The notes below the pieces were generated by a model. It saw only the letters and a program-made list of their open reading frames with translations. It did not search any database and was not told the origin of the DNA. From Planktomarina sp. (GTDB lineage Bacteria; Pseudomonadota; Alphaproteobacteria; Rhodobacterales; Rhodobacteraceae), in contig JAHDCF010000013.1 of NCBI GenBank assembly GCA_020630015.1, positions 1 through 63,518 of the forward strand: a stretch of DNA of 63,518 nucleotides. Reading direction: 5' to 3'. This document shows positions 53,050 to 63,518 of the stretch, one piece after another (within the stretch, counting starts at the first letter, position 1; each line of letters starts with the position of its first letter). Position numbers and translations under genes: made by a program.

Positions 53050-53847
53050 TCAACGGGAATAAAGTACCGGAAACCAATCTTCGCGCAAACGTTGGCCTTG
53101 TGTCATATTGTGGCCGGGAAACGGCGGGGATGTTCGTCCCGGCCGTTCCACATAACGTGCATCATCCCCAACAAGCCGGAGGGAAAACGCCCGTCGCCGA
53201 CTTTTTGATGTATTTCCACGTGCGCCGTGCAAAATGCCATAGTTAAAAGCGACAGCATCCCCAGGTTCCATGGACCATTCCCGAACATCCATTCCTTCGG
53301 CATCTGGATCTGGAACCGGCATGTAATCATCAGGGTTTGGATAAAAGTTTTCTTCTGACAACCAACGCGTCGGCAAAACGGGTTTGGGCCATCTATGTGA
53401 CCCAGCCACGCATCGCAGGCTTGCGTCTGTCACAGGATCAAGTGGAGACCAAAAGCTGACTGTTTGTTGCCCTTCGACAAAATAATATGGCCCGTCTGTG
53501 TGCCATGGGGTGGCCTTGCTGGTGCCAGGTTCTTTGACCAAAACATGATCATGGAACATCTGAACAGTATTTGATTGCATCAAATCCGCAGCAACGGCCG
53601 CAACCGGCGATGTTTCAATAACCTTGCGAAACGTATCTATCCGGGTCCAGTTGCAATAATCATCGAAAAAACGCCCCCCTTCACCTGCCTTCAGGTTTTC
53701 GGCGGCGAATGGGCCGGGTTCCACCATGTTTTGATCAATACCGGCGCGCAAATCGTCCACGTGATCTGCAAACAAACCTTTGATCAGAACAACGCCATCC
53801 GTTTGAAAGGCATCAATGTGGTCTTGGGTGATCATCGGATGGGGCAT
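53050..53847 (-). CDS. Phytanoyl-CoA dioxygenase (PhyH) family protein
   Basis: 265 residues from ATG 53847 (AAAGGA 8 nt upstream). Fe(II)/2-oxoglutarate site: WHTDGPYY (His-x-Asp) and the distal His in ILHGARGNTSKSRRRAFSLR with the Arg for 2-oxoglutarate. Bacterial members hydroxylate diverse small molecules. 39 bp after eda in the same direction, so possibly part of the edd-eda transcript. Confidence 0.88.
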   Translation of the reverse strand: MPHPMITQDHIDAFQTDGVVLIKGLFADHVDDLRAGIDQNMVEPGPFAAENLKAGEGGRFFDDYCNWTRIDTFRKVIETSPVAAVAADLMQSNTVQMFHDHVLVKEPGTSKATPWHTDGPYYFVEGQQTVSFWSPLDPVTDASLRCVAGSHRWPKPVLPTRWLSEENFYPNPDDYMPVPDPDAEGMDVREWSMEPGDAVAFNYGILHGARGNTSKSRRRAFSLRLVGDDARYVERPGRTSPPFPGHNMTQGQRLREDWFPVLYSR

Positions 53848-53886
53848 GGGGCAAGTCCTTTCAAACCCCATGTCCCCCATTTCAAA

Positions 53887-54522
53887 TCAGCGTGCAAGCC
53901 CCGCTGCCGCGTGCGCCAGTGCTTCGATCTTGTCCCAGTTCCCTGCATCCATCAAAGATTGCGACGCGACCCAACTGCCGCCGACGCAAATTACGTTGGC
54001 CAACGATAAATAATCAGAGGCATTTTGGGGGCTGATACCACCCGTTGGGCAAAAGGCAATGTCGGGCAAAGGAGAGGCCAAGGAACCCAGTGCTTTGGCG
54101 CCGCCAATTGCCTCTGCCGGAAAAAACTTAAGGGTTTCATATCCACGGTCGGCCAGTTGCATCGCCTCGCCCGCCGTTGCAACACCGGGTAAAAATGGAA
54201 GGGCTTCTTTTTCAACTGCTTGCAACAGATTTTCCGTCGCACCGGGAGACACCCCAAAGGTGGCACCAGCTGCCTTTGCCGCAGAAACATCCTGCGGTGT
54301 TCTGAGGGTTCCTGCACCAACTTGCGCACCGGGCACCTGCGCCATTTCAGCGATTGCATCCAATGCGCAATCTGTTCGCAGCGTCACCTCAAGCGATGGC
54401 AGACCACCTGCCACCAATGCTTCGGCCAATGGGCGGGCATGTGCGATGTTACGGATCACGATAACAGGAACAACCGGAGCCGCTGTGCACACGGCGCGCA
54501 CGTCTTCTGCCATTTGTTTCAT
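53887..54522 (-). CDS. eda: KDPG aldolase (2-keto-3-deoxy-6-phosphogluconate/4-hydroxy-2-oxoglutarate aldolase)
   Basis: 211 residues. Active-site Glu45 in LEVTLRT, GAGTLRTPQDV, Schiff-base Lys132 in TLKFFPAE and CPTGGI. Splits KDPG to pyruvate and glyceraldehyde-3-phosphate, the second Entner-Doudoroff step. 12 bp after edd. Confidence 0.97.
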   Translation of the reverse strand: MKQMAEDVRAVCTAAPVVPVIVIRNIAHARPLAEALVAGGLPSLEVTLRTDCALDAIAEMAQVPGAQVGAGTLRTPQDVSAAKAAGATFGVSPGATENLLQAVEKEALPFLPGVATAGEAMQLADRGYETLKFFPAEAIGGAKALGSLASPLPDIAFCPTGGISPQNASDYLSLANVICVGGSWVASQSLMDAGNWDKIEALAHAAAGLAR

Positions 54523-54534
54523 TCAATTATTTCC

Positions 54535-56340
54535 TTATACTGCAACACCACCACCTGTGGTCGCGGGGCCTGCGGCACGTCGGAATGTTGCGAAAAGTTC
54601 ACGCCCCAACCCCCATTCATTCGCAGACAAATCAGGATGAACGATTGGTCGATCATCCCACCCTTTGGTGATAATCTCCATATCCCCTGATATGGCATCT
54701 ATGCGTACAATATCATCATCGCGAAGTTGTGCGATGGGGCCACCATCCGCGGCCTCTGGTGTTACGTGAATTGCTGCAGGCACCTTGCCAGACGCGCCAG
54801 ACATGCGCCCATCAGTGATCAGCGCAACTTTGTATCCCCGATCCAGCAACACTGAAAGACTGGGGGTAAGGTTGTGCAATTCAGGCATGCCGTTTGACGA
54901 TGGACCTTGATACCGAACCACGACAATCACATCACGGTTCAGTTCACCGGATTGGAAAGCCTTTTTCACACTTTCCTGATCTTGAAACACCGCCACGGGT
55001 GCTTCAATCACACGGTTGTCTTCGGCCACTGCAGAAACCTTCATCACCCCTTCACCCAGATTACCAATCAGACGGCGCGTTCCACCAGTTGATTGAAACG
55101 GATCATTGCTGGGTCGTAGGATCTTTGTGTTCAGACTTTTGGTTGCCGCTGGACGGAAAGCTATGTCGCCATTTTTCAAAACGGGTTCTTGTGAATATCT
55201 TTGCAACCCTTGTCCCATAATGGTGGTGACATCTTCATGCAGCAACCCTTGTGCCAAAAGATCCCCAATTAAAAATCCAAGCCCACCTGCCGCATGAAAA
55301 TGGTTCACGTCGGCCATGCCATTTGGATACACCCGCGTCATTAACGGAACGAGGGCGGAAATATCCGCGAAATCCTCCATCATGAGTTGGATACCAGCGG
55401 CCCGGGCCATGGCAGGTAAATGTAAAATAAGGTTGGTGGACCCGCCCGTGGCCATCAAGCCGACAATCCCATTCACAAATGCTTTTTCATCCAAAATCCG
55501 GGAAACCGGCGTGAACGTTTCCCCCAATGCAGTCAATCCCAGAACCCGATGTGTGCCAGCGCGTGTCAATGCATCACGCATCGGCGTATTTGGGTTCACG
55601 AAGGATGCACCTGGAAGATGCAAACCCATAAATTCCATCAGCATTTGGTTTGTATTGGCAGTTCCATAAAACGTGCATGTGCCCGGCCCATGGTAACTGG
55701 CCATTTCCGCCGCCATAAGCGCCTCTCGATCACATTCGCCGGATGCAAATTGTTTACGTACCGCCGCCTTTTCGTCGTTTGGCAAACCACTTGTCATTGG
55801 CCCTGCAGGCAGAAAAATCGCGGGGATATGCCCGAACGTGGCAGCAGCCATCACCAAACCCGGCACGATTTTGTCACACACCCCCAAAAAGACAGCCGCA
55901 TCAAATGTGTTGTGGCTAAGCGCCACACCAGCAGACATGGCGATGATATCGCGGGAAAACAGACTAAGCTCCATTCCCGGTTGTCCTTGCGTTACCCCAT
56001 CACACATGGCAGGCACGCCACCAGCCACCTGTGCTGTCGCCCCAGCGTCTCGTGCCGTTTCCTTTATCAAATCAGGAAATGTCTTGAACGGCTGGTGCGC
56101 CGACAACATGTCATTATAGGCCGTCACAATACCCAAATTGGGTTGGCGGCCCTTTGACAAGGCATCTTTGTCTTTCCCCATCGCGGCATATGCATGGGCC
56201 TGATTTCCGCAGCTGAGATGCGCCCGCTGCGGCCCATTCCCAATCGCCGTTTCCATACGTTGCATATAAGCGTCTCGCGAAGCCTTTGAACGTTCAACGA
56301 TCCGTTGGGTGATTTTTTGAATATGAGGGTTTGCAGACAT
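54535..56340 (-). CDS. edd: Phosphogluconate dehydratase
   Basis: 601 residues from ATG 56340, standard Edd length. ILVD/EDD family landmarks: [35 protein letters not shown], the cysteine-containing GVCDKIVPG and [14 protein letters not shown] (Fe-S ligands), and [16 protein letters not shown] near the C-terminus. Dehydrates 6-phosphogluconate. A LacI-type operator sits just upstream of it. Confidence 0.97.
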
Positions 56341-56363
56341 GGTAGATTGCTTTTTCAGATTAC

Positions 56364-56377
56364 TGTTATCGCTAACA
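56364..56377. promoter_or_regulatory. LacI/GntR-type operator in front of edd
   Basis: TGTTATCGCTAACA, matching the GntR-type pattern TGTTAnCGnTAACA with the central CG. It is 24 bp upstream of the edd start, between the LacI-family gene and edd. Confidence 0.72.
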
Positions 56378-56405
56378 TCATAAACTGCGCAAAATTGCAA
56401 CCCGC

Positions 56406-57425
56406 CTATAATTCATGTTTCGCTGTTGAACCGCGTGGCAATAAACGAACATCGCATTGCCAAGTTGCAGGAACGTCCGTTTGCCCGGCAATCAAGCGTC
56501 CAAGCGTTTTGGCAGCTCTTTGCCCAATCTCACGCGCAGGAAGGCGCACAGTGGACAAGGCGGGTTCGGTTTCATCCGATCCTTTGAAATCGCCAATTCC
56601 CATGATGGACACATCTTTTGGTACGGAAAGCCCAATGCGGGCGGCCGCATACATTGCCCCAATTCCGATCACATCATTTCCACACAAAATCGCGGTGGGT
56701 TTTTGGGTTTCTAAAACTGACAAACAATCCCGCTTTGCTGCGCTGACTGAATATTGCGTTGAAACTTCTGCGATTGGGGTGATGCCCCGGTTTTTCATTG
56801 CCTTCCGGGCACCATGCAAACGATCTGCGGCACGGTCATTTCCTCCCGCGGAAGAAATGATCAACGCAATTTCTTTGTGACCCAAATCCATTAAGTGTTC
56901 AGCAGCCATCGCCCCAGCAGAGATGTTGGAGGCCCCAACACAAGGAATGCGCGTATCACTTGCATAGTTCCACATTGTCACGGCTGGGGTGTTTTGGCTT
57001 TCCAATACACCATATGTTTCGTCCAAATGTTCGAACCCAATTAGGGCGACACCATCAACACGGTGTTCCAATAATTTCCGTAAAAGTTGATATTCGCGTT
57101 CCAAATCATATCCATGGGTCGCAAGGATCAAAGAAAACCCTTGTTCTTCGACCGCCTCTGAAAACACTTGGATCAATTCAGCAAAGATTGTGTGATCGAT
57201 TGTTGGCACCACCAATCCAATGGTGCCGCTGCGCCGTCCGTGCATCATTTGGGCTGCCCGATTGCGAATATAACCCGTGGCTTTTATCGCGTCTTCGATT
57301 CGCTTTCGCGTATCAGGTTTCACCAGATTGGGATGGTTCAAGACCCGAGAAACAGTTGAAATTGAAACGCCAGCTGCACGGGCAACATCAAAAATATCTG
57401 AATTTGCTGATTTTTTCTGTGCCAT
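56406..57425 (-). CDS. LacI-family transcriptional regulator
   Basis: 339 residues. Helix-turn-helix about residues 11-60 (IFDVARAAGVSISTVSRVLNHP), then hinge (RNRAAQMMHGRRSGTIGLVVP) and a periplasmic-binding-like effector domain, ending GQTDVPATWQCDVRLLPRGST as in GntR-type members. It precedes edd-eda in the same direction and is divergent from the TTT transporter operon by 91 bp, with operators at both sides. It may control one or both. Confidence 0.92.
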   Translation of the reverse strand: MAQKKSANSDIFDVARAAGVSISTVSRVLNHPNLVKPDTRKRIEDAIKATGYIRNRAAQMMHGRRSGTIGLVVPTIDHTIFAELIQVFSEAVEEQGFSLILATHGYDLEREYQLLRKLLEHRVDGVALIGFEHLDETYGVLESQNTPAVTMWNYASDTRIPCVGASNISAGAMAAEHLMDLGHKEIALIISSAGGNDRAADRLHGARKAMKNRGITPIAEVSTQYSVSAAKRDCLSVLETQKPTAILCGNDVIGIGAMYAAARIGLSVPKDVSIMGIGDFKGSDETEPALSTVRLPAREIGQRAAKTLGRLIAGQTDVPATWQCDVRLLPRGSTAKHEL

Positions 57426-57447
57426 GGGGCCACATACTAATAATTTA

Positions 57448-57461
57448 TGAAAACGTTTGCA
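57448..57461. promoter_or_regulatory. LacI-family operator between regulator and TTT transporter operon
   Basis: TGAAAACGTTTGCA, matching the LacI-family palindrome TGnAAnCGnTTnCA with central CG. It lies 22 bp from the regulator start and 55 bp before tctA, so it can act on both promoters. Confidence 0.75.
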
Positions 57462-57516
57462 AAACTATTTTCATGGGCTAGCGTTACTACTCGAAATTCG
57501 GCGCAACGGGGGGCCA

Positions 57517-59010
57517 ATGGATTTTCTAAACTATTTTGGAGAGGTCTTTTCCCTCTGGTCGTTTTTGATTTTGCTGGGCGGCACAATCATCGGTTTGATC
57601 CTTGGTGCCACGCCGGGTCTGTCCCCCACTATGGCAGTTGCCTTGGCAATTCCATTCACGTTTCAAATGGATGCGGTGAATGGATTAATCCTTTTGGGGG
57701 CACTCTATACATCAACGGTTGCGGGGGGTGCTGTTAGTGCAATTTTGTTAAAAATCCCCGGCGCACCTGCCAATATCGCAACCACGCTTGACGGAAATGC
57801 GATGGCCAAAAAAGGGGAAGGGAAAAAGGCACTGCAGCTTTCTTTCTTGGCCTCTTTGGTTGGAGGGGTGTTGGGCGTGCTGCTTTTGATTTTTGCCACG
57901 CCGGTTTTGGCAAAATGGACCCTTGCCTTCAAATCATCCGAAAGCTTTTGGATTGCCATTGTCGGCATCACAATCATCGGAACATTGGGAAGTAAGTCCG
58001 TTGTAAAGGGCCTTTTGGCGGGTTGCATCGGAATGTGGATTGGCACAATCGGCTTTGACGATATCCAAGGGGCCCAAAGATTTATTTTCCACCCTTCCCT
58101 GTCTGGCGGTGTGCACATCATTCCCGCCCTGATTGGGCTTTTCGCGATACCACAAATCATCGACATGTTCCTGAAAGGGCGGTCGCGTGATGACATGGAG
58201 GTGATCAAGGTTGCCCCACACCCAATAACGAAGGCCGTAAAGGAAGTGGCGCGCCGAACACGCGCATTGGGAATTGGGACTGCTGTTGGATCAATTATCG
58301 GGATCATTCCCGGTGTGGGCGGCCAGATCGCAGGACTGGTTGCTTATGATCAATCTCGGAACTTCAGCGCAGAGCGTGAAAAATTTGGGACGGGCCATTC
58401 GGAAGGCATCATTGCCGCTGAATCGGCAAACAACGCCATGGTAGGGCCGTCACTTGTTCCTTTACTTACACTTTCCATCCCTGGCAGCCCAACAGCAGCG
58501 GTTCTTTTGGGCGGACTGATCATCAACGGCATTTTTCCAGGCCCAGGTATTTTCAAAACCGATCCCCATGTTGTTTGGCCATTCATTAATTCAATGCTGA
58601 TCGGGCAAATCCTTATGTGTATTTTTGGCCTGTTGATTGCGGGTTGGGCTGCGCAAATTGCGCGCGTACCACGCCACGTAATGGCACCGATGGTTCTGGC
58701 CTTGGCCGTTTTCGGAAGCTATTCCGTGCAGCTGTCGATGGATCACGTTTACATTATGCTGATTATCGGCGCAGGTATGTTTGTATTAGAACGCTATGGA
58801 TTTTCTGCCGCCCCGTTGGTTTTGGGTTTGATCCTGGGACCGATCGCCGAAGAACACTTTGTAACCGGTGCCGCGATTGCGCAGGCACAAGATGGCATCA
58901 TTCCGTTCTTTTTCACAGGGACGCTAAACCTGTGCCTGATTGCGATTGTTGTTGCCTCAATCACCTATTCGGTTTGGATGGAAATTCGCAATCGTAAGGT
59001 TCGGGGGTAA
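57517..59010 (+). CDS. tctA: Tripartite tricarboxylate-type transporter large permease (TctA)
   Basis: 497 residues from ATG 57517 (GGGGGG upstream). About twelve transmembrane helices, with GLILGATPGLSPTMAVALAIPFTF near the N-terminus and GIIPGVGGQIAGLVAYDQS, LTLSIPGSPTAAVLLGGLI in the middle: the TctA signatures. Secondary transporter driven by an ion gradient, working with TctB and the periplasmic TctC. Substrate inferred from neighbours. Confidence 0.95.
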   Translation: MDFLNYFGEVFSLWSFLILLGGTIIGLILGATPGLSPTMAVALAIPFTFQMDAVNGLILLGALYTSTVAGGAVSAILLKIPGAPANIATTLDGNAMAKKGEGKKALQLSFLASLVGGVLGVLLLIFATPVLAKWTLAFKSSESFWIAIVGITIIGTLGSKSVVKGLLAGCIGMWIGTIGFDDIQGAQRFIFHPSLSGGVHIIPALIGLFAIPQIIDMFLKGRSRDDMEVIKVAPHPITKAVKEVARRTRALGIGTAVGSIIGIIPGVGGQIAGLVAYDQSRNFSAEREKFGTGHSEGIIAAESANNAMVGPSLVPLLTLSIPGSPTAAVLLGGLIINGIFPGPGIFKTDPHVVWPFINSMLIGQILMCIFGLLIAGWAAQIARVPRHVMAPMVLALAVFGSYSVQLSMDHVYIMLIIGAGMFVLERYGFSAAPLVLGLILGPIAEEHFVTGAAIAQAQDGIIPFFFTGTLNLCLIAIVVASITYSVWMEIRNRKVRG

Positions 59011-59014
59011 GGGA

Positions 59015-59470
59015 ATGCAAAGACTTCAGACGATATTACCCGCAGCAATTATCTTGGTCCTTGGGATTTGGGTTGCCTTCATCAGCTTTACCCAAGAACC
59101 CGCCGCTGCATATATCTTTCCACGTTTGTTTTCTGCAGCTTTCGTTGGGTTGGCCTGTATCGGGGCGATTACAGCACTGTTGGGGAAATCGTCCTCAGAA
59201 CAAGGCATTTCCCTTATCGATTTGCGCAATATGTTGCCCGGCGTAATCGTCGCCTGCATCTATGTTTTTTGGGGGGCAAAGTTCTTTGGATTTTACACGG
59301 GTACCACATTGGCGGTTTTTGCCATGCTAACCCTTTACGATCCTGCACCGCATACATCTGCGATGACTTGGATTAAACGTATCGTCATCACAGCCTGCTT
59401 CATGGCTGTTATGTATGGTCTCTTCGCACTTATCCTGAATGTGTACACACCGCGAGAGATTTTTGCCTGA
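59015..59470 (+). CDS. tctB: Tripartite tricarboxylate-type transporter small permease (TctB)
   Basis: 151 residues, four transmembrane helices, DUF1468-type pattern (ILVLGIWVAFISFTQEPAAAYIFPRLFSAAF, then GFYTGTTLAVFAMLTLYDP). Starts 4 bp after the tctA stop with AAGGGA in the gap. Confidence 0.9.
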   Translation: MQRLQTILPAAIILVLGIWVAFISFTQEPAAAYIFPRLFSAAFVGLACIGAITALLGKSSSEQGISLIDLRNMLPGVIVACIYVFWGAKFFGFYTGTTLAVFAMLTLYDPAPHTSAMTWIKRIVITACFMAVMYGLFALILNVYTPREIFA

Positions 59471-59513
59471 ACCGAATATCGGCAGGCGTAACCAACCCTT
59501 GGGAGGAACCAAC

Positions 59514-60482
59514 ATGAAGAAACTACTAGCAAGCGCCGCATTGGCCCTGATGGCCCTAACCGGCACAGCACAGGCAGATGGTCACGGAAACTATCCTGAT
59601 CGTCCGATGATGCTCATGGTCAGCTATGGCGCCGGTGGGGCAACAGATTTCCAAGCCCGGATCGTAACCATGACAGCCGGGAATGAAGATGCCTTGGGAA
59701 TGCCCATCGCAATCATCAACAAGCCAGGTGCCGGCGGCCGTGTTGGTTGGAACTGGTTTGCAACACAAGCAGAGGCTGATGGATACACCATGGGAGCTTA
59801 CAACATCCCACACTTCATCGCACAGTCAATCAAAGGTGGTGTTGAATATTCAGCCGACAGCTTTGAGCCCATCGCAAACTGGGGCGCTGATCCAGCGGTG
59901 TTTGTGGTTGCCGCTGACAGCGACATGAATTCAATGGCTGACGTGGTTGAATTTGCAAAAGCAAACCCAGGCAAATTGACATTCTCTGGCGCTGGTCTGT
60001 TTGTGGGTCACCACATCGCAGCCCTGCAAATCGAGAAAGCTGCTGGCGTGAAAATGGCATACATCCCCAACAAAAAGGGTGGTGCTGGCGCGATGAAAGC
60101 TGTGATCTCGGGCGAGGTTATGGCAGGCGTCAACAACTTGTCTGACGCTTTCCGTGCGCAAGAAGCTGGTACCGTGAAAATCCTCGGTGTGGCGGATCTT
60201 GAGCGTAATGCATTCTTGCCTGACGTTCCAACAATGATGGAACAGGGTCTGGATGTCGACAATTCATCCGTGAACTTTCGCGGTGTGATGGTCCCAAAAG
60301 GTACTCCAAAAGCAATCATCGACAAATTGGCCGCCACAGTTCCAACAATGTTCGAGAACAGTCGTGTTCAAGGTAAAATGAAGGCTGGTGGCTCACCAAT
60401 GCACATCATGACACGCGATGAGGTATTGGCTATGTGGGCCGCACGTGAAGAAACTTTGAAAGAGCTGCTTGCAGGTCTTTAA
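59514..60482 (+). CDS. tctC: Tripartite tricarboxylate-type transporter substrate-binding protein (TctC)
   Basis: 322 residues, GAGG before ATG 59514. Signal peptide ending TAQADG. Bug/TctC fold: YPDRPMMLMVSYGAGGATDFQAR, NKPGAGGRVGWNWFA and GMKAVISGEVMAG-like loop. The binding loop (YGAGGATD) is the usual place for carboxylate or sulfonate coordination. Followed by a hairpin and sauS. Confidence 0.94.
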   Translation: MKKLLASAALALMALTGTAQADGHGNYPDRPMMLMVSYGAGGATDFQARIVTMTAGNEDALGMPIAIINKPGAGGRVGWNWFATQAEADGYTMGAYNIPHFIAQSIKGGVEYSADSFEPIANWGADPAVFVVAADSDMNSMADVVEFAKANPGKLTFSGAGLFVGHHIAALQIEKAAGVKMAYIPNKKGGAGAMKAVISGEVMAGVNNLSDAFRAQEAGTVKILGVADLERNAFLPDVPTMMEQGLDVDNSSVNFRGVMVPKGTPKAIIDKLAATVPTMFENSRVQGKMKAGGSPMHIMTRDEVLAMWAAREETLKELLAGL

Positions 60483-60492
60483 GACAAAATGC

Positions 60493-60517
60493 GTGGGGCG
60501 CAGTACTTGCGCTCCAC
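60493..60517 (+). other. Intercistronic hairpin between tctC and sauS
   Basis: GTGGGGCGCA (60493-60502) pairs with TGCGCTCCAC (60508-60517), ten pairs with one G-T wobble, loop GTACT, no T tract directly after. Placed 10 bp after the tctC stop, as often seen after binding-protein genes, where it keeps that mRNA segment stable and lowers downstream expression. Confidence 0.65.
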
Positions 60518-60545
60518 CGCTTCCCATTTTTCAGAGGAATTCCCC

Positions 60546-61949
60546 ATGAACGCCCAAGATGAAGTTCTTGAAGTTGAAGCCGTCATGGCCCGCGCCCGCG
60601 CCGCACAAGCGCAATACGAGGCGACCGGCAGCCAAGACCTTTACGACCGCGCCGCACAGGCCGCTGGCTGGGCGATCATGGAACCCGCACGCAATCGTCA
60701 CTTGGCAAAACTCGCCGTTGAAACCACGGGCCTTGGTAACGTGCCTGACAAGATCACAAAGAACCATCGAAAGACACTGGGTTTGTTGCGCGACATCGCT
60801 GACGCCAAAACACATGGCGTTGTCAGGGATGATGCCGCAACGGGTATCACCGAAATCGCCCGCCCTGTTGGTGTGGTGGGCGCCGTGGTGCCATCGACAA
60901 ACCCCGCCGCGACACCGGCCAATAACATCATCAATGCCTTGAAAGGCGGGAATGCCATTGTGCTATCACCATCCCCCAAAGGCGTGCCTGCATGTGAGGT
61001 TTTGCTGGGATATATTTATGCGGAATTTGACAAGCTGGGGCTTGATCATGATCTGGTCCAAATGGTGCCGGCACCTGGGTCAAAGGTCAAAACCCAACGG
61101 ATGCTCGAACTCAGCGATTTGGTGGTGGTCACCGGCAGTCAAGACAATGTGCGCCGTGCCTACACCTGTGGCCGACCGTCGATTGGTGTGGGCGCGGGCA
61201 ATGTGACGGTGATCATTGATGAAACGGCCGATCTGGCTGCTGCTGCGGCAAAGGTCACGGCATCAAAGACATTTGATAACGCGACGTCCTGTTCATCTGA
61301 AAACGCCCTGATCGTTGTTGACGCGGTCTACGACGACTTTGTTGCCGCAATGGCCGCAGAGGGCGGTGCATTGGTCAAGGATGAAGCTGGGATTATTTCA
61401 AAGCTTTGGCCGGACGGGCATCTGAACCGCAGCGTGATCGCCCAAGACGCGGACAAAATGTTGGTTGCCTTGGACATGGTTGGTCAGGTTCCTGAAGATA
61501 CAAAATTCTTGGCGGTTGAAACCAATGGCATCGGTCCTGATCACCCGCTTTCGGGCGAAAAACTCAGCCGTGTCGTTGCGCTTTACCGGGCGCGCGATTT
61601 TGACCACGCCGGCAAAGTTGCCGCTGAGATTTTGGCACATCAAGGCGCGGGACATTCCATCGGATTGCATTCAACCGATGACGCCCGCGCCCTTGCTTTG
61701 GGGGCAAGCATCCCGACCTGTAGGGTGATCGTAAATCAAGCGCATTGTTTCGCTACGGGCGGTGCATTTAACAATGGGATGCCTTTTTCCCTGTCGATGG
61801 GGTGCGGCACGTGGGGTGGCAATTCAATTGATGACAATTTGAATTGGAGACACTTTATTCAAACCACAAAAATTGTGCGTGAGATCCCACCAGTCGAACC
61901 AAGTGTAGAAGAAATATTTGGAAGTTATTGGGCGGATTTTGGAAAGTGA
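60546..61949 (+). CDS. sauS: Sulfoacetaldehyde dehydrogenase (acylating), SauS-like
   Basis: 467 residues from ATG 60546 (AGAGGA 7 nt upstream). CoA-acylating aldehyde dehydrogenase. Nucleophile Cys249 in FDNATSCSSENA; GVVGAVVPSTNPAATPANN, TGSQDNVRRAYTCGRPSIGVGAGN, and the C-terminal GGAFNNGMPFSLSMGCGTWGGNS, which I associate with the sulfoacetaldehyde dehydrogenase group. It would reduce sulfoacetyl-CoA to sulfoacetaldehyde. There are no microcompartment shell genes, so it is unlikely to be a PduP/EutE enzyme. Substrate not proven by sequence. Confidence 0.85.
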   Translation: MNAQDEVLEVEAVMARARAAQAQYEATGSQDLYDRAAQAAGWAIMEPARNRHLAKLAVETTGLGNVPDKITKNHRKTLGLLRDIADAKTHGVVRDDAATGITEIARPVGVVGAVVPSTNPAATPANNIINALKGGNAIVLSPSPKGVPACEVLLGYIYAEFDKLGLDHDLVQMVPAPGSKVKTQRMLELSDLVVVTGSQDNVRRAYTCGRPSIGVGAGNVTVIIDETADLAAAAAKVTASKTFDNATSCSSENALIVVDAVYDDFVAAMAAEGGALVKDEAGIISKLWPDGHLNRSVIAQDADKMLVALDMVGQVPEDTKFLAVETNGIGPDHPLSGEKLSRVVALYRARDFDHAGKVAAEILAHQGAGHSIGLHSTDDARALALGASIPTCRVIVNQAHCFATGGAFNNGMPFSLSMGCGTWGGNSIDDNLNWRHFIQTTKIVREIPPVEPSVEEIFGSYWADFGK

Positions 61950-63439
61950 TGATTGATCCAAATACCCCCCCGGACGGAACGATACGGGACTGGATCGACG
62001 ACCGCGCAAAGCGTGGCGGCACAGCCTTCGTTTTTCCAGCTGATCGCGGATTGCTAACTTGGCATGCATTGCGAAATGCAGCGATCTCTGTCGCGCGGGA
62101 TTTGACCCTTCAAGGGTGTCAAAAGGGGGAAAGCGTCGCCATCCTTCAACCCAATGGCCGGGACGCTGTCATTGCATTTTACGGTGCGCTTTACGGTGGT
62201 TTTCGAGCCACGATGGTAAACCTAGCAGCTGGACCTGATGCAATTTCTTATGCGCTTGATCATTCGGATGCGCGATTTGCATTCGTGCACACCGACGCAG
62301 AAGAAGTTTATATTCAAGCCAAACCAGATGGGATGGAACGGCTCAAGTTTATTGATGTTGAAGAGAACGTGCAGCTTCATGATGTGTCTGCAAATGATGA
62401 TGCGTTGTTGATGTATACTTCCGGCACAACCGGAAGACCCAAAGGTGTGATTCATACCCATGCAAGTCTTCTTGCCGGGGGATGGACAACCGCTGTCGCA
62501 CATAAGTTAACTGCGGCCGATCGCGGTTTTTGCGTTCTACCGATTTATCACATCAACGGCCTGTGTGTGACGGTTATGGGGTCATTGGTTTCGGGCGGCT
62601 CTCTTTCAATGGTGCCAAAGTTTTCAGCGAGCCGTTTCTGGGATCAAGTTGGATCAAGTGCCGCGACTTGGTTTTCTGTCGTTCCAACAATCATTAGTCA
62701 TCTTGTTCATGGTGATTTCGAACCAAGCCCAGATGTTAAAGCAAAAATCAGATTTGGAAGATCAGCATCGGCACCGTTGGCCCCAGAGGTTCAAACCGCT
62801 TTCGAAAACAGGTTTGATGTTCCAATCGTTGAAACCATGGGTTTGACGGAGACAGCGGCTCAGATATTGTCAAATCCACTTCCACCGGGGGAACGAAAGA
62901 TAGGCTCTCCCGGTATACCCTTCGGAAACGAAATCTCGATATTGAGTCCTACCGGTGAGGAATTGGGACCGGGTCAAGAAGGTGAAATAGCGGTACGCGG
63001 GCCCAACGTATTGAAGGAGTATCTTAAGAATCCAGAAGCTACGTCAAAAACATTTAATCAAGATGGTTGGTTGTTAACCGGTGACTTGGGACAAATAGAT
63101 GATGATGGGTATGTTTTCGTTACGGGTCGGCTGAAGGAACTGATTATTAAAGGTGGTGAAAATATCGCACCGCGTGAAGTTGACGAAGCATTGTACCAAC
63201 ACGCAGATGTCGTAGAAGCCGGTGCTTTCGCCCGGCCCTGCGACAAATATGGTGAACGTGTCGAGGCCGCCGTTCGCCTAACAGTTGGATCTGCAGCGAC
63301 AGAAGACGAGCTGATAAAAATTTGTCACGATAGGCTGGGTGCTTTCAAATCACCGGATGTAATCCATTTAATGTCCGAGCTTCCGAAAGGGCCATCGGGA
63401 AAAATTCAGCGCCTGAAACTCGCCGACCTATTGCCGTAA
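61949..63439 (+). CDS. sauT: AMP-forming acyl-CoA ligase, SauT-like (candidate sulfoacetate-CoA ligase)
   Basis: 496 residues from ATG 61949, which shares one base with the sauS stop (TGATG). ANL family: YTSGTTGRPKGVIHTH (P-loop), ETMGLTETAA, LLTGDLGQID, and KELIIKGGENIAPREVDEAL with the C-terminal Lys in GPSGKIQRLKL. Position beside sauS fits sulfoacetate activation to sulfoacetyl-CoA. Other small carboxylates cannot be ruled out. Visibly more A/T at its codon third positions than sauS in its last third. Confidence 0.85.
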   Translation: MIDPNTPPDGTIRDWIDDRAKRGGTAFVFPADRGLLTWHALRNAAISVARDLTLQGCQKGESVAILQPNGRDAVIAFYGALYGGFRATMVNLAAGPDAISYALDHSDARFAFVHTDAEEVYIQAKPDGMERLKFIDVEENVQLHDVSANDDALLMYTSGTTGRPKGVIHTHASLLAGGWTTAVAHKLTAADRGFCVLPIYHINGLCVTVMGSLVSGGSLSMVPKFSASRFWDQVGSSAATWFSVVPTIISHLVHGDFEPSPDVKAKIRFGRSASAPLAPEVQTAFENRFDVPIVETMGLTETAAQILSNPLPPGERKIGSPGIPFGNEISILSPTGEELGPGQEGEIAVRGPNVLKEYLKNPEATSKTFNQDGWLLTGDLGQIDDDGYVFVTGRLKELIIKGGENIAPREVDEALYQHADVVEAGAFARPCDKYGERVEAAVRLTVGSAATEDELIKICHDRLGAFKSPDVIHLMSELPKGPSGKIQRLKLADLLP

Positions 63440-63465
63440 AATCGAATTTGATTTGGTGATTTACT

Positions 63466-63518
63466 TGGTTGCGGGAGTAGGATTTGAACCTACGACCTTC
63501 AGGTTATGAGCCTGACGA
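63466..63518 (-). tRNA. Initiator tRNA-fMet (anticodon CAT), 5' end cut by the window
   Basis: Read on the minus strand: anticodon loop CTCATAA with AGG/CCT stem bases, then the extra loop, T-loop GGTTCAAATCC and 3' CAACCA with encoded CCA. Anticodon CAT and the alphaproteobacterial initiator stem fit fMet rather than elongator Met. About 53 of 77 bases are visible, so the D-arm and acceptor 5' end cannot be checked. Confidence 0.85.

Follow-up and report, generated by a model that had tools for sequence, protein, structure and literature searches.

The sulfoacetate genes of Cupriavidus necator H16, sauRSTU (Weinitschke 2010), are reportedly controlled by a GntR-type regulator, SauR. By the description in the accessible part of PMC12625764, that strain relies on the dehydrogenase SauS and the ligase SauT, with transport by SauU, a member of the major facilitator superfamily (MFS). 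The sauSCD-SauXYZ system of Bilophila wadsworthia (Liu 2023), known to us by description from the accessible parts of PMC12625764 and PMC12890257, pairs SauS with a tripartite tricarboxylate transporter (TTT), but its ligase, SauCD, is ADP-forming, and its sulfoacetaldehyde goes to isethionate, which is cleaved by IseG, instead of to Xsc. Here we describe a locus of Planktomarina sp. (contig JAHDCF010000013.1, positions 1 to 63,518; the whole of this stretch of 63,518 nucleotides is referred to as the window) in which sauS and sauT stand beside a TTT of the TctABC kind and the neighbouring regulator gene, unlike sauR, is of the LacI family. Judged by its genes, this operon very probably imports sulfoacetate and converts it to sulfoacetaldehyde. 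We also consider it likely that the LacI-family sulfoacetate regulator, with a near-invariant 28-bp operator-promoter, has remained fixed while the transporter was exchanged among an MFS protein and two TTT types that are distantly related; such a module would be a ready-made sensor for sulfonates, and the site would identify a large share of the Roseobacter-group bacteria that use sulfoacetate.

The first three genes, tctA (57517..59010, + strand), tctB (59015..59470, +) and tctC (59514..60482, +), encode the large membrane subunit, the small membrane subunit and the periplasmic binding protein of a TTT. They are followed by sauS (60546..61949, +), for a predicted CoA-acylating sulfoacetaldehyde dehydrogenase, and sauT (61949..63439, +), for a predicted AMP-forming sulfoacetate--CoA ligase. 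All five are intact. Coordinates and family scans thus bear out an earlier note on this DNA, which had placed tctABC, a SauS-group dehydrogenase and an AMP-forming ligase on one strand. The gaps of 1-63 bp given there are right as to the largest, 63 bp, but the spacings measured along tctA-tctB-tctC-sauS are 4, 43 and 63 bp, and sauS and sauT share 1 bp. TctA (PF01970, 441.1 bits), TctB (PF07331, 37 bits, cut-off 29.1) and TctC (PF03401, 134.7 bits) all exceed the Pfam cut-offs in adjoining genes, which makes a complete TTT set. On a plasmid of Ruegeria sp. THAF33, LacI, tctABC, sauS and sauT recur in the window's order, with the LacI gene divergent; identity with the window is 72.9% for TctA, 49.7% for TctB and 83.5% for TctC. 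A scan of contigs returned at least 560 SauS relatives, and our results on related loci refer to the best 80, a set biased toward close relatives. Since the order is repeated on the Ruegeria plasmid and the window's TctC type is found near sauS in 64 of the 80 loci, the five-gene arrangement is not a product of chance.

Could oxalate, malonate, an unsulfonated relative or a similar small acid be the true substrate, with the acyl-CoA reduced to a semialdehyde or to glyoxylate? The closest solved relatives of SauT are oxalate--CoA ligases (5ie0, E 7.1e-82), ligases for a small dianionic acid, a charge type that also counts in favour of sulfoacetate; the closest solved structure to SauS, 8cei, is named succinate-semialdehyde dehydrogenase (acetylating); and the accessible part of PMC5812351 lists TTT systems for several carboxylates. 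We nevertheless regard this alternative as unlikely. SauS scores 674.5 bits against the curated, sulfoacetaldehyde-specific equivalog model NF047625 (cut-off 600), against no more than 334 bits with any of the other models for acylating aldehyde dehydrogenases, and sauS is associated with xsc across genomes and linked to it in some relatives, as detailed below. Cys249 of SauS, in the motif TSCSSEN, is invariant in 13 alignment rows. SauT carries both AMP-ligase domains, PF00501 (236.4 bits) and PF13193, and is 38.7% identical to the product of a Caballeronia gene that sits between sauS and an MFS gene; in 78 of the 80 loci a sauT gene is found no further than 6.5 kb from sauS. Among the 25 NCBIfam matches listed for SauT none reaches its cut-off and none is named SauT, the best being FadD7 (334.3 of 650 bits). 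SauS is predicted to be the enzyme that reduces sulfoacetyl-CoA to sulfoacetaldehyde, and SauT would act on sulfoacetate.

The Xsc step is, as the earlier note said, not in the window: xsc lies elsewhere in the same genome (G000:C21:2796-4529; TIGR03457, 912.2 bits, cut-off 676.4). It is directly followed by pta (TIGR00651, 339 bits, cut-off 311.2), so that the search for both genes which that note had proposed found both over cut-off; a lack of xsc, which the note would have taken as refuting its reading, is not what the genome shows. A TauE/SafE gene (PF01925) comes next, and past it a molybdopterin oxidoreductase gene, cut by the contig end, whose product presumably resembles a Soe-type sulfite dehydrogenase. 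We took a census of SauS in 394 genomes from the family to which the window belongs: it exceeds the cut-off in 51, is intermediate in one (G410) and has no match at E 1e-150 in 342. Among the 51 SauS-positive genomes 48 have an over-cut-off Xsc, compared with 25 of 51 SauS-negative ones (Fisher p 4.5e-7); the latter were drawn from the 342 in the order of their handles, and a 26th has a partial xsc match at a contig end. In Paracoccus sp. TOH, Azospirillum, P. onubensis (L083), L104 and G398/L174, no more than about 10 kb separates sauS from xsc. In Paracoccus onubensis (L083:1232-18900), xsc-pta pairs flank a LacI-sauST-tctCBA cluster on both sides.

The binding protein offers a further test of the pairing. 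By eye, the start of tctC resembles a signal peptide. In 30 of the 51 SauS-positive and 30 of the 51 SauS-negative family genomes we looked for the window's TctC type at E 1e-50 or better and found it in 26 and 0, respectively. In all 26 the match starts 1.05-1.50 kb from the SauS start coordinate, that is, the genes adjoin (the match in G416 is partial). As this TctC type was found only beside sauS in the 60 genomes, it is best read as part of a dedicated importer belonging with sauS. A profile search of PDB sequences with TctC returned 25hk, a TTT binding protein, and Bug-type proteins. Together, the SauS model, the xsc association and the TctC pairing support, at the level of sequence, the uptake and activation of sulfoacetate suggested in the earlier note.

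The LacI-family gene (56406..57425, - strand; PF00356 and PF13377) is divergent from tctA, with 91 bp up to the tctA start codon. Its product is 52.8, 53.1 and 49.2% identical to LacI-type proteins encoded divergently from sau genes on plasmids of Ruegeria, Sulfitobacter and Paracoccus, respectively. The intergenic regions of these three loci and of the window have in common the pattern ATGAAAACRTTTGCAANNCNNTTTTCAT, which in the window is represented by a proposed 28-bp operator, ATGAAAACGTTTGCAAAACTATTTTCAT (57447..57474, +), a conserved site to which binding is predicted only. We searched the 394 family genomes for the pattern with up to two mismatches, using the reversed pattern as a control. 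The site is present in 36 genomes, as a single copy with 0 or 1 mismatch in each; the control gave 0. All 36 are among the 51 SauS-positive genomes. The distance from site to sauS is at most 6 kb in 35 of them; the exception is G540, where site and gene fall on separate contigs. A divergent LacI gene is present in 68 of the 80 best loci, and the site stands beside it in all 68, with 0 (54 loci), 1 (12), 2 (1) or 3 (1) mismatches.

A predicted promoter (57456..57484, +) overlaps the site, with a -35 box TTTGCA (57456-57461), a spacer of 17 bp and a -10 box TAGCGT (57479-57484). Outside the searched motif, the sequence TANNNT follows exactly 17 bp past the site's TTTGCA in 68 of the 68 LacI-linked loci; its three bases are invariant in 73 sequences (69 loci, three plasmids and the window), while most flanking bases vary. 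By eye both hexamers are far from consensus (4/6 and 3/6), and a promoter scan of the window did not list them. On this prediction the -35 box and the greater part of the spacer lie inside the 28-bp site, as is expected of a repressor site. We propose that the LacI-family protein represses both the sau operon and its own gene. The site accompanies LacI and not the transporter: it occurs with the window's TTT type, with a second TTT type and with MFS, and it is absent from the two clusters that have the window's TTT type, lack LacI and have their upstream side available (L117, apparently identical to L169, and L171). The LacI Pfam families and the company that the conserved site keeps with LacI agree with the view that this regulator takes the place of SauR.

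The LacI gene also has neighbours on its other side: edd, eda and then a PhyH-family gene lie behind it on the - strand, according to Pfam and NCBIfam scans. It could therefore belong with edd and eda and control sugar-acid use, its proximity to tctA being accidental; LacI, edd, eda and the PhyH gene are consecutive, and the top NCBIfam match of the LacI protein is the regulator GntR, although at 232.5 bits it falls under the cut-off of 400. We hold this to be very improbable. When the window's edd and eda were compared by tblastn with the 80 loci, not all of which are complete, no match covered half of the query. In 68 of these loci, by contrast, the LacI gene diverges from sau genes, always with the site adjoining, and only one full site exists in the window's genome. 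A role as edd-eda regulator was rejected since the edd-eda neighbourhood was not seen in the relatives' loci.

Control of the sau operon by the LacI-family protein appears to be local, because a search allowing up to two mismatches finds one full site in the window's genome and the closest other LacI relative there is only 36% identical. With a 14-base core and up to one mismatch, this genome gives nine matches; the known site accounts for two, one per strand, and the remaining seven equal the seven of the reversed control. An operator before xsc was therefore rejected as a candidate, and as far as sequence tells Xsc is outside the LacI regulon.

Around this switch the transporters differ. In Sulfitobacter alexandrii, LacI, sauS and sauT are followed by a different TTT, tctCBA; its TctC and TctA share 32-33% identity with those of the window. 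In Paracoccus sp. TOH a LacI-type gene, sauS, sauT and an MFS gene come together, with xsc about 5 kb off. Azospirillum brasilense has tctCBA, sauS and a gene pair annotated as an ADP-forming ligase beta subunit and a CoA-binding protein, with xsc about 7 kb further on, and Caballeronia has IclR, sauS, sauT and MFS. The transporter within 6.5 kb of sauS in the 80 loci, which probably overlap the 394 genomes in part (the contigs of L117 and L169 match in length, as do those of L126 and L170), is the window's TTT (type A) in 64, the Sulfitobacter TTT (B) in six, MFS (C) in one and a further TTT (D) in eight; one locus has none. In L126, the sole D locus whose regulator was inspected, an IclR gene precedes the TTT. 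When the transporter types are mapped onto a SauS tree of 86 rows, five labels, A to D plus a single row without a type, need nine changes, against a minimum of four and a shuffled mean of 19.5, so the transporters have probably been exchanged more than once and are also strongly clustered. The long branches of Caballeronia, Azospirillum, L117 and L124 are not safely placed on this tree.

Fifteen SauS-positive genomes lack the site, and 12 of these were inspected (the other three being G392, G539 and G715). In five, SauT is accompanied by a further TTT type; two have the window's TTT without LacI, four have a SauS closest to that of Azospirillum and no match to SauT, and in one (L173) sauST is cut by the contig end. 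One of the five is G429 (locus L164), the only other sampled genome of the window's genus, which has sauST with a different TTT and without LacI or the site; the sau cassette thus varies inside one genus. The one locus of the 80 without any of the four transporter types near sauS is that of Tritonibacter multivorans (L070, 3-15042), in which genes for a CitMHS-type permease, a 4Fe-4S protein and a DmsC-type protein precede sauST and a GntR gene follows, while TctC- and TctA-like genes lie about 8-10 kb upstream of sauST. A TTT may serve this locus too, perhaps with a second transporter beside sauST. Two SauS copies in draft genomes, L112 and G542:C107:3812-5182, have an in-frame stop and are either broken genes or sequencing errors.

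Two features lie at the margins of the locus. A PhyH-family dioxygenase gene, eda and edd occupy 53050-56400 of the window; only the PhyH gene was matched in the relatives' loci, in L096. The contig stops 79 bp past sauT, and by eye its end (63465-63518) resembles a cut tRNA gene on the - strand; ARAGORN found none in the window.

In the mechanism that we propose, TctC would capture periplasmic sulfoacetate and pass it to TctAB, an ion-driven permease. SauT would use ATP and CoA to convert it to sulfoacetyl-CoA, which SauS would reduce to sulfoacetaldehyde. Xsc, encoded on another contig, would convert sulfoacetaldehyde and phosphate to acetyl phosphate and sulfite, and Pta would then form acetyl-CoA. 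When no substrate is present, the LacI protein would sit on the 28-bp site and block tctABC-sauST and probably its own gene, and an inducer, either sulfoacetate or a product of it, would free the protein from the site.

The pathway might conceivably run the other way, from sulfoacetaldehyde through sulfoacetyl-CoA to sulfoacetate, with the ligase in reverse and the product exported. In sulfoquinovose degraders a SauS-like enzyme, SqwD, and the ADP-forming ligase SqwKL are reported to operate oxidatively (PMC12890257, accessible part). Here, however, the binding-protein-dependent TTT is an importer, xsc is in the genome, and the ligase is AMP-forming. The AMP-forming ligase step is practically irreversible in cells, and we consider the oxidative direction highly improbable.

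Several points weigh against import and reduction of sulfoacetate as laid out here. The substrate, with sulfoacetate as the ligand of TctC, the reactions, the repression, the inducer and the role of the transporter are what we infer from the sequence. The window's SauS is just 52-54% identical to the SauS of Caballeronia and Azospirillum and ranks 17th of 24 over-cut-off SauS proteins (624-811 bits) in a class-wide sample, so a shifted specificity is possible. Xsc was not found in three of the 51 SauS-positive genomes, the drafts G416, G542 and G563. It serves taurine and other sulfonates too, and since half of the SauS-negative genomes tested also carry it, its presence is not proof. Finally, xsc lies apart from the operon in the window's genome, and the search of that genome found no 28-bp site upstream of it, so that xsc must be induced in another way.

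Sulfoacetate is a product of taurine and sulfoquinovose breakdown, according to the accessible parts of PMC12625764 and PMC12890257, and its marine consumers are little studied, as far as the literature searched shows. With SauS over cut-off in 51 of the 394 genomes, sulfoacetate use may be a fairly common trait of the family. The 28-bp site and the TctC type can serve as metagenome markers, and the site is a candidate part for a biosensor.

How does the locus compare with transporters already assigned to sulfonates? The accessible part of PMC5812351 lists a TTT, SlcHFG, for sulfolactate in Roseovarius nubinhibens and Chromohalobacter salexigens; by this description it resembles the window's system in using a TTT for a sulfonate, and it differs in substrate, sulfolactate instead of the proposed sulfoacetate. 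The nearest counterparts come from sponge symbionts, whose TTT-containing sauST clusters are termed the 'hybrid type' in PMC12625764 (2025), a paper that in its accessible part cites SauXYZ of Bilophila as a precedent. Like the window these clusters combine SauT, SauS and a TTT in marine bacteria, and some carriers belong to the Puniceispirillales and Rhodobacterales. The earlier note's idea of the TTT as a distinct solution for a sulfonate thus holds in that a TTT, and not SauU, stands beside sauST on this contig, but this solution was already in print, and the operon of the window adds one more example to it. The words LacI, repressor, transcriptional regulator and operator, in contrast, do not appear in the main text of PMC12625764, and among the matches listed in our search of the open-licence literature there was no LacI regulator of sulfoacetate use and no such site. 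Compared with these systems, the basic pathway was already known; what stands out is the switch with its operator, which seems to be undescribed so far, and the probable exchange of transporters under it.

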